From: Longimicrobium sp.
GTDB lineage: Bacteria > Gemmatimonadota > Gemmatimonadetes > Longimicrobiales > Longimicrobiaceae
Direction of reading: 5' to 3'
DNA length: 32,397 nucleotides
Assembly: GCF_035474595.1 (NCBI RefSeq)
Contig: NZ_DATIND010000058.1
Span: 1 to 32,397 of the forward strand
In this document: in pieces, positions 18,372 through 23,292 of the stretch
How the letters are laid out: each line of letters starts with the position of its first letter
Numbering within the stretch: position 1 is the stretch's first letter
Position numbers and translations under genes: made by a program
The notes under the pieces: generated by a model
What the model was told of the DNA's origin: nothing
What the model saw: the letters and a program-made list of their open reading frames with translations, nothing else
Databases searched by the model: none

Positions 18372-18412
18372 ATGACGAGCGGCGCCGCGGGACAGGGGGC
18401 GCCGCTCGTCAT
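18372..18412 (+). terminator. Strong terminator after small lipoprotein
   Basis: A perfect 15-bp stem ATGACGAGCGGCGCC/GGCGCCGCTCGTCAT with an 11-nt loop, followed by the T-rich ATCTTCTTC. Confidence 0.88.
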
Positions 18413-18458
18413 ATCTTCTTCATCGGCAACGCTGTCCGATCCCCGGCCACATCCCGAG

Positions 18459-19202
18459 ATGACCGATCCACAACCCGCCCCGGCGACCGGCGGCCGCTTC
18501 CTGACCGCCGCGTGGCGCACGCTGGTGATGCTGAACTGGGAGGTCGATCCCGGCATCCTGCGCCCGTTCGTGCCGCGTGGGACGGAGCTGGACGCGTGGC
18601 AGGGGAAGACGTTCGTGAGCGCGGTGGGTTTCCTCTTCCTCGGGACGCGCGTGCTGGGGATTCCGGTGCCCTTCCACCGCGACTTCGAGGAGGTGAACCT
18701 GCGCTTCTACGTGGGCCGGCAGGGGCCGGAGGGGTGGCGCCGCGGTGTCTGCTTTGTCCGCGAGATCGTGCCTCGTTGGGCGATCGCGACGCTCGCGCGC
18801 GCCGTCTACAACGAGCGCTACGTGGCCCTTCCCATGCGCCACCGCGTGGAGATCTCGGCGGATGCGGGTGAGGCGGAGTACGCGTGGGCGCTCGGCGGGC
18901 GATGGAACACGCTGCGGGCGCGTTTCGCCGGCTCGCCCGCGCCGCTGGTGCCGGGATCGGAGGAGGAGTTCATCACCGAGCACTACTGGGGCTACACCGC
19001 GCAGCGCGACGGCGGGACGGTGGAATATCGCGTGGAGCACCCCTCGTGGCGCGTATGGACCGCCTCCGAGGCCGCCCTCGACGCGGACGTCGCCGCGCTC
19101 TACGGCGTCGAGTTTTCTCAGGCACTGTCTCAGCCCCCGTCCTCCGCCTTCGTCGCGGACGGCTCGCCCATCGTCGTCCGCCGCCCCCGCCGGGTGGCGT
19201 AA
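18459..19202 (+). CDS. DUF2071 (YqjF-like) protein
   Basis: A 247-residue soluble protein matching DUF2071/YqjF, an acetoacetate-decarboxylase-like beta fold. Typical segments are WRTLVMLNWEVDPGILRPFVP near the start, SAVGFLFLGTRVLGIPVPFH, FEEVNLRFYV and a late EEFITEHYWGYT. Family function is not established. An earlier in-frame ATG at 18372 lies inside the preceding terminator and is unlikely. ATG 18459 gives the family-typical N-terminus. Confidence 0.88.
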   Translation: MTDPQPAPATGGRFLTAAWRTLVMLNWEVDPGILRPFVPRGTELDAWQGKTFVSAVGFLFLGTRVLGIPVPFHRDFEEVNLRFYVGRQGPEGWRRGVCFVREIVPRWAIATLARAVYNERYVALPMRHRVEISADAGEAEYAWALGGRWNTLRARFAGSPAPLVPGSEEEFITEHYWGYTAQRDGGTVEYRVEHPSWRVWTASEAALDADVAALYGVEFSQALSQPPSSAFVADGSPIVVRRPRRVA

Positions 19203-19339: not shown

Positions 19340-19771
19340 ATGGTGACGCTCGCGCACTCCACCTCGGGAGAGTTCGGACGGCCGCGCACCGCGACGGCCG
19401 GCGCCCGCGCCGCGCTGGAGCGCGCGGTCGATGCCGCCCCGAGCCGCATTCCGCCGCCGCGCGGGTGGCTGCGCCGCCTCTTCGCGCGCGACCGCTCCGC
19501 CCGCGCGCTGATCGAGCGCTACCGCCTCTGGCCCGAGATCGAGTACGCGTACGAGCGCATGGCCCAGGAACTCGGTGAGGTTCGCGTGGAGATGTTGGCG
19601 CAGGACGATGACGGCGAACCGTACCTGGCGCTGAACTTCCACACTGCCTTGCGGGACGTCGACGAGTTGCTCGATGTGGAGGATCTGGTCCGTGGCGAAC
19701 TCCGGGCACGCAGGCGGGGGAAGTCGCTCCGCCGGCTGAGCGTGCTCGTTCATCCAGACCCCAGCATGTGA
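19340..19771 (+). CDS. Cassette gene A, copy 1: unknown partner of HEPN-like protein
   Basis: A 143-residue protein. Residues 1-40 look disordered (Ser/Thr/Pro/Arg). A basic amphipathic stretch follows, RGWLRRLFARDRSARALIER. Residues about 78-140 look like a small beta-alpha-beta domain with acidic loops (VRVEMLAQDDDGEPYLAL, LSVLVHPD). No nucleotidyltransferase GSxxxG motif is present, so it is not a classic MNT antitoxin. It has a second copy at 20258. The HEPN-like gene follows 12 nt after its stop. By position it could be an antitoxin-type partner; that is inference. GGAAAG precedes the ATG. Confidence 0.7.
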   Translation: MVTLAHSTSGEFGRPRTATAGARAALERAVDAAPSRIPPPRGWLRRLFARDRSARALIERYRLWPEIEYAYERMAQELGEVRVEMLAQDDDGEPYLALNFHTALRDVDELLDVEDLVRGELRARRRGKSLRRLSVLVHPDPSM

Positions 19772-19783
19772 GGACATCCTTCG

Positions 19784-20200
19784 ATGGCGTTTGATCCGGA
19801 GCGGTGGCTCGACGTCGCCGAGATCTGCTGCAGCACGATCCCGGGCGTGAGCCGCGAGGCGCTGCTGAGGACGGCGCTGAACCGTGCCTACTACGCGGCA
19901 CTTCTCGCCCTCAAGCAGCGCATCGAAGCTGTCCAGGGGGTTGGCGCCGTTCCGGCGTGGAGAACGCACGACGCGATCAAGCAGGCCATCCGTATGGGCG
20001 GAGATTCGTTCGAAGAGATCCGCAAAGATCTCGAAACCCTGCGGAAGGCACGGGAGCAGGCGGATTACGTTCTCTCGACCGAAGACTTGCAGCGGGACTC
20101 GGTGCATCTGTCCGTGACGCGCAGCCGGCGTCTGATCCGCAACCGCATCAAGGCGCTGCCGGAGGCCGAGTTCCGCCGGCTGCGCGTTCCGCGTGGGTGA
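19784..20200 (+). CDS. Cassette gene B, copy 1: HEPN-like domain protein
   Basis: A 138-residue all-helical protein with HEPN/UPF0332-type features: LNRAYYAALLALKQRIE (compare SRAYYAxFHAAK of HEPN proteins), a later THDAIKQAI His, and LRKAREQADYVL (compare LRxxADY). The canonical RNase motif R-x4-6-H is not evident. The nearest, RDSVH, has three residues between and is lost in copy 2, so nuclease activity is doubtful. HEPN proteins act as RNases or AMPylation-controlled toxins with small antitoxins, or as non-catalytic partners. GAGGA lies about 9 nt before the ATG. Confidence 0.75.
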   Translation: MAFDPERWLDVAEICCSTIPGVSREALLRTALNRAYYAALLALKQRIEAVQGVGAVPAWRTHDAIKQAIRMGGDSFEEIRKDLETLRKAREQADYVLSTEDLQRDSVHLSVTRSRRLIRNRIKALPEAEFRRLRVPRG

Positions 20201-20257
20201 GTGAGTCCCGGGCGCTCACTTGATCGTGATCCAACCCGCTGAGGCAAGGAAATAACG

Positions 20258-20710
20258 ATGGCCACGCTCGCGCACCCCACATCGGGAGAGTTCGGACGGC
20301 CGCGCACCCCGACCGCCATGGCCCGCGAGGCGCTGGAGCGCGCGGTCGATACCGCCCCGAGCCGCATTCCGCCGCCGCGCGGGTGGCTGCGCCGCCTCTT
20401 CGCGCGCGACCGCTCCGCCCGCGCGCTGATCGAGCGCTACCGCCTCTGGCCCGAGATCGAGTACGTGCACGAGCGTATCAGCCGCGAGCTTGGCCCTGCA
20501 CGGGTCGAAGTGACGGCGGAGGACGAGTTCGGCTACCCGTACGTGGCTGTCGACTACTATGTGGCGCCTGGGGCGGGAGACGAACATCTCGATCTGGAGA
20601 ATGCATTGGGCCGTGAGCTGATCGCGCGGCTCGGCAGCAAACGCTTTGCGCGCCTGCTGGTGGTGATCCATCGGGACTGGAGCAGGAAGACTGGGAACCA
20701 TGAGCTTTGA
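20258..20710 (+). CDS. Cassette gene A, copy 2
   Basis: A 150-residue paralogue of the gene at 19340. The first 69 residues differ at only about six positions; the C-terminal half is strongly diverged and has a longer tail (SRKTGNHEL). A 114-nt block (20352-20465) is identical to 19434-19547, including all third codon positions. The C-terminal domain keeps the same beta-alpha-beta look (ARVEVTAEDEFGYPYVAVDYYV, LLVVIHRD). AAGGAA precedes the ATG. Its 3' end overlaps copy 2 of gene B by 11 nt. Confidence 0.7.
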   Translation: MATLAHPTSGEFGRPRTPTAMAREALERAVDTAPSRIPPPRGWLRRLFARDRSARALIERYRLWPEIEYVHERISRELGPARVEVTAEDEFGYPYVAVDYYVAPGAGDEHLDLENALGRELIARLGSKRFARLLVVIHRDWSRKTGNHEL

Positions 20711-21116
20711 TCCGGAGAATTGGCTCGGGGTGGCTGAGGTTTGCTGCATCACCGTTCCCGGGACCGATCGGGAGGCGATGCTGAGAACGGCAGTGAACCG
20801 CGCGTATTATGCGGCGCTGCTCGCGCTGAAGCAGAGGATCGAAGCGGTACAGGGGCCCGGCGCAGTTCCGCGCGCGGGGACCCACGAGGCTCTCACGCAA
20901 GCCGTGAGGGTCGGCGGCTACCAGTTCGAGGAAATCAGCCGCGAACTCGGCAGGCTGCGCCGGGCACGCGAGGGGGCTGATTATGTGCTGGATACTGATC
21001 CGCTGCAGTGGACCACCGTTCGCGATTACGTCAAACGGAGCCGCGCGCTCATCCGCAACCGAATCAAGGCGCTGCCGGAGGCCGAGTTCCGCCGGCTGCG
21101 CGTGCCGCGGGGGTGA
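20700..21116 (+). CDS. Cassette gene B, copy 2: HEPN-like domain protein
   Basis: A 138-residue paralogue of the gene at 19784. A hand alignment needs no gaps and gives about 70% identity. NRAYYAALLALKQRIEAVQG and the last 20 residues are identical. At the DNA level the 41 nt at 21063-21103 match 20147-20187 exactly. The residues aligned to RDSVH of copy 1 are changed, so no R-xn-H motif remains. The start codon lies within the end of gene A copy 2 (11-nt overlap), implying translational coupling and a stoichiometric pair. Confidence 0.75.
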   Translation: MSFDPENWLGVAEVCCITVPGTDREAMLRTAVNRAYYAALLALKQRIEAVQGPGAVPRAGTHEALTQAVRVGGYQFEEISRELGRLRRAREGADYVLDTDPLQWTTVRDYVKRSRALIRNRIKALPEAEFRRLRVPRG

Positions 21117-21225: not shown

Positions 21226-23292
21226 ATGCGCAAGCCCCTTTCCCTGGCCGCGTGGGCCGTGGTCGCCGTGCTCGGCGCGTTCTCGCTCGGGCTCATCGCC
21301 CTGCACCGCGGCGAGACGATCAACGCCGCGTGGCTGGTGACCGCAGCCGTGTGCACCTACGCGGTGGCGTACCGCTTCTACTCGCGCTTCCTGGCGCGGC
21401 GCGTGTTCGGGCTGGACGACCGCCGTGCCACGCCCGCCGAGCGGCTGAACAACGGCGTCGACTTCGTCCCCACCAACCGCTTCGTGCTGTTCGGGCACCA
21501 CTTCGCGGCCATCGCCGGCGCGGGGCCGCTGGTGGGGCCGGTGCTCGCGGCGCAGTTCGGCTATCTGCCGGGAACGCTCTGGCTGATCATCGGCGTGGTG
21601 CTGGCGGGGGCGGTGCAGGACTTCGTCATCCTCTTCTCCTCCATGCGCCGCGACGGCAAGTCGCTGGGGCAGATGGCGCGCGAGGAGATCAACACCGTGG
21701 CCGGTTTCACGGCGATGGTGGCGGTGCTGGCCATCATGGGCATCCTCCTGGCCGTGCTGGCGCTGATCGTGGTGAACGCGCTGAAGCACAGCCCCTGGGG
21801 GATGTTCACCATCGCCTGCACGGTACCCATCGCGCTGCTGATGGGGTGGTGGATGCACTCGTTCCGCCCGGGGCGCGTGGGCGAGGCGTCGGCCATCGGC
21901 GTGGTGCTCGTCCTGGCGGCCACGGTCGGGGGGAAGTGGGTGGCGGAGAACCCCGCCCTCGCTGCGATGTTCACGGTGGAGGGGAAGACGCTGGTCTGGC
22001 TGCTGATGGGCTACGGCTTCATCGCCTCCGTCCTTCCCGTCTGGGTGCTCCTCTGCCCGCGCGACTACCTCTCCACCTTCCTGAAGATCGGGACCATCCT
22101 GGCGCTCGCGGCCGGCATCCTCATCACGTTGCCGACCATGCACATGCCCGCGCTGACGCAGTTCATCGACGGCACCGGGCCGGTGTTCGCCGGGAAGCTC
22201 TTCCCCTTCGCCTTCATCACCGTGGCGTGCGGGGCGATCAGCGGCTTCCACGCGCTGGTGGCCTCGGGGACCACGCCGAAGATGCTGGTGCGCGAGGGCG
22301 ACGCGCGCGTGGTGGGGTACGGCGCGATGCTGATGGAGAGCTTCGTGGGGGTGATGGCGATGGTGGCCGCGGGGATCCTGCAGCCGGGCGTGTACTTCGC
22401 CATCAACTCGCCCGCGGGCGTGGTGGGCGGCACGCTGGCCGAGGCGACGCGCACCATCGCCGCGTGGGGATTCGTGGTCTCGCCCGGCGACATGCAGGCA
22501 CTGGCGCGGCAGGTGGGCGAGCAGACGCTGCTGGCGCGCACCGGCGGCGCGCCATCGCTCGCGGTGGGGATGGCGCAGATCTTCTCGGGGGTGTTCGGCG
22601 GCGGGACGCTGGTGGCCGTGTGGTACCACTTCGCCATCATGTTCGAGGCGCTGTTCATCCTCACCACCATCGACACGGGGACGCGCGTCGGGCGCTTCAT
22701 GCTGCAGGAGCTGCTGGGGCACGCGTGGAAGCCGCTGGGGCGCACCTCGTGGTACCCGTCGGTGGTGCTCAGCAGCGGGCTGATGGTGGCGTTCTGGGGA
22801 TACTTCCTCTACCAGGGCGTGGTCGATCCGCTGGGCGGGATCAACTCGCTCTGGCCGCTCTTCGGCATCTCCAACCAGCTGCTGGCGGCCATCGCGCTGT
22901 GCGTGGGGACCACGGTGCTGATCAAGATGGGGAAGGCGCGCTTCAGCTGGGTCACCCTGGGGCCGCTGGCCTGGCTCAGCGCGGTGAACTTCACCGCGGG
23001 ATGGGAGAAGGTGTTCTCGGCCGATCCCAAGCTCGGCTTCTTCGCGCACGCGGGGATGATCCAGGCCAAGCTCGCGAGCGGCGCCCTTCCCGCGGGTGCG
23101 AAGACGGTCGGCGACGCGCACCGGATGCTCTTCAACGACCGGCTGGACGCCGTAGTGACCCTCGCCTTCATGGCGGTGGTGGTGATGGTTCTCGTCGCCT
23201 CGATCGCGCAGTGGGTGCTGATCCTCTCCCGCCGCCGCCCCGCGGTGCTCACCGAGACGCCGTTCGTCGCCAGCGCCTTCGCGGGCGATTAG
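21226..23292 (+). CDS. cstA: CstA family carbon-starvation peptide/pyruvate transporter
   Basis: A 688-residue, highly hydrophobic polytopic protein. Clear CstA segments include NNGVDFVPTNRFVLFGHHFAAIAGAGPLVGPVLAAQ near residues 75-112, CGAISGFHALVASGTTPK in the middle and a long C-terminal set of membrane helices. CstA/BtsT proteins take up peptides or pyruvate under carbon limitation at the inner membrane. The usual small DUF466 (YbdD) companion is not found next to it. The 109-nt gap upstream shows no strong Shine-Dalgarno; ATG 21226 gives a normal family N-terminus. Confidence 0.95.
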   Translation: MRKPLSLAAWAVVAVLGAFSLGLIALHRGETINAAWLVTAAVCTYAVAYRFYSRFLARRVFGLDDRRATPAERLNNGVDFVPTNRFVLFGHHFAAIAGAGPLVGPVLAAQFGYLPGTLWLIIGVVLAGAVQDFVILFSSMRRDGKSLGQMAREEINTVAGFTAMVAVLAIMGILLAVLALIVVNALKHSPWGMFTIACTVPIALLMGWWMHSFRPGRVGEASAIGVVLVLAATVGGKWVAENPALAAMFTVEGKTLVWLLMGYGFIASVLPVWVLLCPRDYLSTFLKIGTILALAAGILITLPTMHMPALTQFIDGTGPVFAGKLFPFAFITVACGAISGFHALVASGTTPKMLVREGDARVVGYGAMLMESFVGVMAMVAAGILQPGVYFAINSPAGVVGGTLAEATRTIAAWGFVVSPGDMQALARQVGEQTLLARTGGAPSLAVGMAQIFSGVFGGGTLVAVWYHFAIMFEALFILTTIDTGTRVGRFMLQELLGHAWKPLGRTSWYPSVVLSSGLMVAFWGYFLYQGVVDPLGGINSLWPLFGISNQLLAAIALCVGTTVLIKMGKARFSWVTLGPLAWLSAVNFTAGWEKVFSADPKLGFFAHAGMIQAKLASGALPAGAKTVGDAHRMLFNDRLDAVVTLAFMAVVVMVLVASIAQWVLILSRRRPAVLTETPFVASAFAGD

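Follow-up and report, generated by a model that had tools for sequence, protein, structure and literature searches.

A tandem HEPN cassette of Longimicrobium with a small partner of apparently undescribed kind: a candidate toxin-antitoxin module

In the HEPN-T variant of the HEPN family, an aspartate replaces the motif histidine and an alternative histidine is located between helices 2 and 3 (PMC3710099, in its accessible part). According to the accessible part of a preprint on retron-Kva2 (PMC13405049), the active site of its HEPN protein is formed by H64 and R122 from both monomers. The mutations H64A, R122A and Y40-42A each abolish defence against phage T5, and activation of the system leads to tRNA degradation (PMC13405049). 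HEPN-MNT toxins of "Class II" lack the RX4HXY motif and keep a conserved tyrosine, which has been suggested to be the AMP acceptor (PMC7641770, in its accessible part). Here we describe a locus in which a HEPN gene, B, follows a small gene, A, in two consecutive cassettes, B resembling the proteins above and A being a partner without nucleotidyltransferase features.

The locus and its uneven repeat

The window, that is, the whole 32,397-nt stretch of Longimicrobium sp. DNA that was analysed, contains the co-directional genes A1-B1-A2-B2 between positions 19340 and 21116 (Table 1). The initial annotation had read this locus as A-B-A-B, with a gap of 12 nt in the first pair and an overlap of 11 nt in the second, and the ORF coordinates agree on each point (A1-B1 gap of 12 nt, A2/B2 overlap of 11 nt); 57 nt separate B1 from A2. 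The array is flanked by DUF2071 (18372-19199) and CstA (21226-23289) genes. A promoter and terminator scan of the locus gave one promoter-like site, within B2, and no terminator-like site. Since B1 and B2 differ by dN 0.23 versus dS 1.08 (dN/dS ~0.22), B is under purifying selection. This ratio, a third A-B pair elsewhere in the same genome (contig C127) and three further pairs in two other genomes of the genus together indicate that the A and B genes are real.

Table 1. Features of the tandem A-B locus (positions in the window)
Feature	Coordinates	Strand	Basis or detail
A1 partner gene, 143 aa	19340..19771	+	ORF; N-terminal region ~1-61, predicted alpha-beta-beta-alpha-beta domain ~62-143
B1 HEPN gene, 138 aa	19784..20200	+	Pfam PF05168, model, 2hsb, Kva2 profile match
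B1 key residues			R34-A-Y36-Y37, H62, R90-x3-D94-Y95
A2 second partner gene, 150 aa	20258..20710	+	ORF; 66% identical to A1 (protein)
B2 second HEPN gene, 138 aa	20700..21116	+	ORF; 72% identical to B1 (protein); conserved residues same as B1
A1 codons 1-70, near-identical to A2 block 20258-20467	19340..19549	+	42/44 fourfold sites
B1 codons 116-138, second well-conserved block	20129..20197	+	DNA 90% identical to 21045-21113

A tandem duplication had been proposed for this locus. Two adjacent copies are indeed present, but some parts of the repeat are far more alike than others, and a simple recent duplication was rejected on the pattern at fourfold-degenerate sites. Between the cassettes, 42 of the 44 such sites are identical in A codons 1-70, which include an identical run of 114 nt (19434-19547), versus only 6 of 17 in the rest of A; in B the counts are 16 of 45 for codons 1-115 and 11 of 15 for codons 116-138. 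Over the same A block, A1 shares only 21 of 36 sites with the third copy on contig C127 (Fisher p 6e-5), and in the C-terminal half of A and most of B the divergence between the two cassettes is roughly as large as that between either of them and the distant paralogue. It follows from the contrast between the start of A and its remainder that the former was recently converted between neighbours. Judged from sequence, the neighbouring cassettes are thus old paralogues in which the 5' half of A has been recently gene-converted. Their outer ends (A start and B end) have been homogenised, but the C-terminal domain of A and the core of B have stayed diverged, a pattern that suggests these last two as a matched unit. 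A and B distances correlate weakly over the six close pairs (Mantel r 0.67, with 34 of 720 permutations as high).

Other tandem arrays were observed. A second one in the same genome (L095, G000:C28:24442-26749) holds three A-B cassettes beside rimP, with partners that are 76-81% identical and HEPNs that are only 37-45% identical to the middle copy. The third HEPN of this array was rejected as an intact gene, its middle being out of frame. A genus relative (L091, G379:C54:26329-27829) has two A-B cassettes beside a gene that looks rimP-like by eye, a setting that apparently matches that of the C28 array.

HEPN fold and putative active site of B

The description of B as HEPN-like in the initial annotation is supported by model, structure matches and profile matches. 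B1 matches the Pfam HEPN family PF05168 with 23.2 bits (cut-off 22, E 7.9e-5), and B2 scores 16.7 bits, under that cut-off. The family is matched by 11 of 22 B relatives at E <= 0.01, while NCBIfam matched 0 of 22 B proteins. The predicted model of B1, built from 22 sequences (pLDDT 94.7, pTM 0.88), has the four-helix HEPN fold. Its best fits among solved structures are HEPN proteins, led by AF0298 (2hsb; Z 13.1, rmsd 2.7 over 113 residues), and it fits sacsin HEPN with Z 11.6 and the MntA-HepT toxin (6m6w) with Z 9.4. Foldseek alone also places 2hsb and 2q00 on top, but with E-values of 0.05-0.07. On the predicted model, B belongs with the HEPN proteins of PF05168/AF0298 type.

B had also been said to lack a clear R-x4-6-H. 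The absence stands, as the canonical Rx4-6H is missing from B and the Class I motif RX4HXY from both B1 and B2, but a putative active site is conserved nevertheless: none of R90, D94, Y95 and H62 varies among 22 diverse B relatives from bacteria and archaea. These four residues lie outside the peptide pattern used to recruit the 22 relatives, whereas R29, T30, R34, Y36, Y37 and A38 lie inside it and owe their conservation partly to selection by the search. B fits the AF0298 variant, with the motif arginine kept (R90), aspartate in place of the motif histidine (D94) and a conserved histidine upstream (H62).

Searched against solved structures, a profile of B relatives matched 9xbd (3e-9) and 9xbc (5e-8), both HEPN, as well as the retron-Kva2 HEPN 36ht (E 1.1e-4) and AF0298 2hsb (E 2.4e-4). 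In the main stretch of the profile alignment, R34, Y36, Y37 and H62 of B correspond to R39, Y41, Y42 and H64 of Kva2, and in a weak second stretch R90-x3-D94-Y95 corresponds to R122-GIV-DY. As the equivalent residues of Kva2 are needed for defence and tRNA is degraded upon activation, RNase activity may be expected of B, which by this analogy is a candidate HEPN RNase. At the conserved DY position, one of the sequences of 9xbd and 9xbc has Y and the other F, apparently to probe that tyrosine.

Partner A and recurrence of the pair

Gene A had been left without a recognised family and without MNT motifs, and our searches agree with both statements. A1 and A2 have no match in Pfam, and A1 has none in PADLOC or among solved structures. 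No MNT or nucleotidyltransferase family matches any of 26 partners, A1 and A2 included, and no GSx10DxD motif was seen in the partners inspected by eye. The partners of L062 and L151, flagged as MNT by a motif pattern, were judged false by eye. A1 residues 62-143 are predicted to form an alpha-beta-beta-alpha-beta domain in a medium-confidence model (pLDDT 77, pTM 0.65) that covers these residues only. Modelling was restricted to this region because alignments with trimmed partners misplaced the first helix, which still stands opposite gaps in most rows of the alignment behind the model. The solved structures closest to the domain score Z 6.5-7.7 without a clear winner and therefore show the fold class only; they are C-terminal domains of cation-diffusion facilitators, the N-terminal domain of RimP, BolA and a probable RNA-binding protein. 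Foldseek of the domain against viral models gave nothing at E <= 0.001, and the best match of partner profile A8 among solved structures (Cas1, E 0.31) was taken as chance. The same holds for a weak NCBIfam match of A to a hydroxylase, far under the cut-off, and for PADLOC matches of single partners to Csn2, RT_UG22, AbiEi or TPR. The aligned domain has no invariant residue among distant partners. Several relatives' partners carry long N-terminal regions, and in some phages the N-terminal part of the A-type protein is TPR-like, by weak matches. As far as its sequence tells, A is a partner of an apparently undescribed kind, non-enzymatic in appearance.

All 6 of the 6 close A genes, from three genomes of the genus, directly precede a B. 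A single-sequence search of the phylum found A in 4 and B in 12 of 395 genomes, the match in the fourth genome with A (G146) being partial and inside a 405-residue frame. A scan of 84,980 species genomes yielded 21 B relatives in Gemmatimonadota, Chloroflexota, Latescibacterota, Proteobacteria, Desulforhopalus, Planctomycetota and archaea, including a Lokiarchaeon. At 20 of these 21 loci, counting L054 (44-nt overlap) and leaving out L055 as not a pair, a co-directional upstream gene ends close to the start of the HEPN gene, from 44 nt past it to 18 nt short of it, and the end of this upstream gene resembles the A domain by eye. Five loci were found in viral contigs; one repeats a genome locus, and the other four all have a partner-like upstream gene. 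A profile search detected HEPN relatives in 29 of the 395 phylum genomes, in 13 of 321 genomes of the class to which the Kushneria genome belongs, and in 12 of 12 genomes where one had been found before. Searched by tblastn, neither the 72,556 plasmid records nor the 50,697 phage records contained a match to B1. A-B pairs, which the initial annotation had proposed to look for in other genomes, are thus found widely, in bacteria, archaea and (pro)phages, as a two-gene module: small, adjacent, co-directional genes paired again in distant taxa.

In a held-out test, in which the profile was trained without the tested cluster and the rivals were 39-324 six-frame stretches, the true upstream gene came out on top at 11 of 27 loci and among the best three at 20 of them (combined Fisher p 1.7e-14 over 22 clusters). 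The matches of L053 (4e-7), L041 (9e-6) and L048 (1e-5) were significant alone and many others were not; in the window, A2 ranked first and A1 12th of 324 frames. Because a six-frame null favours real genes, upstream MNT genes were used as a control, and among upstream genes outside the training set 10 MNT-less partners outscored 12 MNT genes (Mann-Whitney p 0.0009).

Proximity to defence islands, also raised in the initial annotation, is not evident in the window, where the neighbours are DUF2071 and CstA, but related pairs do lie in viral contigs and a phage-plasmid. CstA was rejected as a shared insertion site, as in 5 relatives with CstA neither A nor B was found within ~1.5 kb upstream of it, and the wider stretch had no DUF2071 in 4 of 4 relatives tested. 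In a Pseudomonas phage and in P. aeruginosa plasmids, a HEPN relative immediately follows the gene of an S24-peptidase repressor and is itself followed by a YafO toxin gene, a position that may be expressed during lysogeny. One such plasmid stretch (L098, 3208-5715) is possibly a lysogeny-expressed defence or addiction cluster; the partner there has a domain resembling that of A by eye and is not in the profile top 5 of 94. In two Chloroflexi loci (L038 and L042) the pair stands directly before an apparent purH (by eye), in like order. By eye, the downstream gene is DUF262-type-like in L037 and CRISPR-Cas-protein-like in L046.

HEPN genes partnered by MNT were compared with those of the A-B type. 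Among 22 additional loci from the last two of the profile searches above, in which one partner label was corrected by eye, an A-like partner is present in 10 and an MNT gene in another 10, and in 2 no upstream gene was found; the MNT-partnered ones are the weaker profile matches. We built a tree of 55 HEPNs, sampled with a profile of the MNT-less type and thin on the MNT side, of which 12 are MNT-partnered and 43 MNT-less, meaning that the partner has no MNT motif and that its fold was in many cases judged by eye. On this tree a single change accounts for partner type; the same holds for 94% of 200 bootstrap trees, branch support is 91/76, and 0 of 500 shuffles were as low (mean 11.1). Left off the tree were duplicates or near copies (L062-L067, L069, L090, L017, L075, L077, L079, L081, L122-L133), L048 (short HEPN), L057 (identical to L039), L055 (upstream gene regulator-like by eye), L068 (degenerate DY motif, close to the L040 group), and L073, L082, L086-L089, L149 and L154 (upstream gene unclear or match short). 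The RxxxDY motif is retained by 42 of the 43 MNT-less rows and by 11 of the 12 with an MNT partner, and it is hence not specific to AMPylation. Its tyrosine, Y95 in B, may be the one proposed to accept AMP in Class II toxins. Besides the A-B cassettes, the genome of the window has three MNT-HEPN loci, so that both partner kinds coexist in it. The HEPN genes of these three loci (G000:C27:16946-17374, C19:11863-12285 and C46:253049-253432) match PDC-M05B, a PADLOC candidate, and the MNT gene upstream of each has an extended N-terminal region.

Proposed mechanism, alternatives and known systems

A HEPN fold, a conserved active site, a recurrent pairing and the lack of MNT were all computed for the A-B pair. 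We think it fairly probable that the cassette is a toxin-antitoxin or abortive-infection module, in which the HEPN RNase B is held inactive by A without nucleotidyl transfer. By analogy with its homologues, B would be a dimeric, metal-independent RNase whose active site comprises H62 and R90, with Y36-Y37 and D94-Y95, in place of the canonical Rx4-6H, and its likely target would be tRNA or another cellular RNA. We infer that A inhibits B: it would be made first, bind the B dimer through its C-terminal alpha-beta-beta-alpha-beta domain and silence it without covalent modification or nucleotidyl transfer. The variable N-terminal part of A would be the sensing or localising part that sets the trigger for release. 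Once A is lost, degraded or engaged, for instance by a phage, B would be freed and growth would stop.

It is scarcely credible that the cassette is instead an ordinary HEPN-MNT (type VII) module, with A as an unrecognised MNT that AMPylates a tyrosine of B. B does belong to the same HEPN class as the "Class II" modules (PMC7641770, accessible part) and keeps Y95, but A1, A2 and the 24 other partners match no nucleotidyltransferase family, the partners inspected by eye show no GSx10DxD, MNT-less and MNT-partnered HEPNs split on the tree with one change, and RxxxDY is kept on both sides of that split, which speaks against a role specific to AMPylation. The missing Rx4-6H, the housekeeping genes adjoining the cassettes and the existence of non-catalytic HEPNs such as MtlR (PMC3710099, accessible part) would agree with a catalytically inactive B that binds RNA or protein, A-B being then a regulatory complex and not a toxin system. 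We regard this as unlikely, given that H62, R90, D94 and Y95 are invariant over bacteria and archaea and that Kva2 depends for its defence on the residues equivalent to H62, R90 and the YY stretch (PMC13405049).

The roles could also be reversed, with the activity residing in A and B serving to inhibit or scaffold it. A precedes B and its N-terminal parts are variable, and long in several relatives; however, the A domain has no invariant residue in distant partners whereas B has an invariant putative active site, which makes this arrangement very improbable. A selfish or decaying duplicated cassette without present function would be in line with the patchy distribution in the phylum (A in 4 and B in 12 of 395 genomes by single-sequence search) and with the one of three tandem C28 HEPNs that is out of frame in its middle. 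The dN/dS of ~0.22 between B1 and B2 and the intact active-site residues of both render it quite improbable.

Taking the cassette as a HEPN RNase held by A, it is tempting to propose, tentatively, that composite H/R HEPN RNases, pan-prokaryotic, have been given at least three unrelated controls: MNT, the retron RT-msDNA-winged-helix assembly and A-type partners. The constant C-terminal domain of A would lock the dimer, its variable N-terminal part would sense invaders, and tandem cassettes would multiply insulated triggers. If true, homogenised ends and diverged cores would be the means by which tandem cassettes multiply such triggers per genome. A widespread, apparently undescribed regulatory partner would be added to a very large prokaryotic family of RNA-cutting toxins, and "motif-less" HEPNs would gain a testable putative active site. 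The tyrosine kept without a neighbouring AMPylating gene bears on the reading of "Class II" HEPN-MNT systems, and the copies in phages and prophages open a defence role to direct tests in laboratory strains.

Among known systems, MntA-HepT (HEPN-MNT, type VII) resembles A-B in having a small upstream partner and a downstream HEPN in one operon, and in the fold of the toxin. It differs in that A is not a nucleotidyltransferase, B is without RX4HXY, and the two stand apart on the HEPN tree. The PADLOC candidate PDC-M05B is HEPN-like, as B is, and PDLC04377 is matched by 5 of 22 B relatives; unlike in A-B, B1 has no match at E <= 0.01 and the three PDC-M05B matches in this genome have an upstream MNT. 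PDC-M05 models had no match among the 26 partners. AbiV (9bj5-9bj7), presented in its PDB title as the RNase of a two-component antiphage system, is like B a HEPN with an alternative conserved histidine (PMC3710099, accessible part), while its structural similarity to B (Z 6.1-6.3) is low and within the range of unrelated helical bundles. A toxin-antitoxin pair of Acidovorax was rejected as a relative, being BrnT-like and not HEPN in the accessible part of its description (PMC10714953).

The retron-Kva2 (type IX) HEPN (PDB 36ht) shares with B the Y-Y, H64 and R122-x3-DY equivalents and the lack of Rx4-6H, but it is controlled by a complex of RT, msDNA and winged-helix protein (PMC13405049, accessible part), whereas the only partner of B is a small alpha/beta protein. 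Scanning of five window neighbours found no RT gene. The PADLOC label HEPN_IX we take, from its name, to be the type IX retron HEPN. HEPN-T/PF05168 (AF0298, 2hsb) resembles B in its fold (Z 13.1), in the aspartate standing for the motif histidine and in the alternative histidine between helices 2 and 3. In the accessible part of PMC3710099, HEPN-T proteins are standalone, MNT-fused or near R-M genes, with no alpha-beta-beta-alpha-beta partner there, and we found no description of the partner family and its HEPN pairing in the open-access literature that was searched. The toxin type is thus already known, from HEPN-T and retron-Kva2, and what appears to be undescribed is the partner family and its pairing with a HEPN protein.
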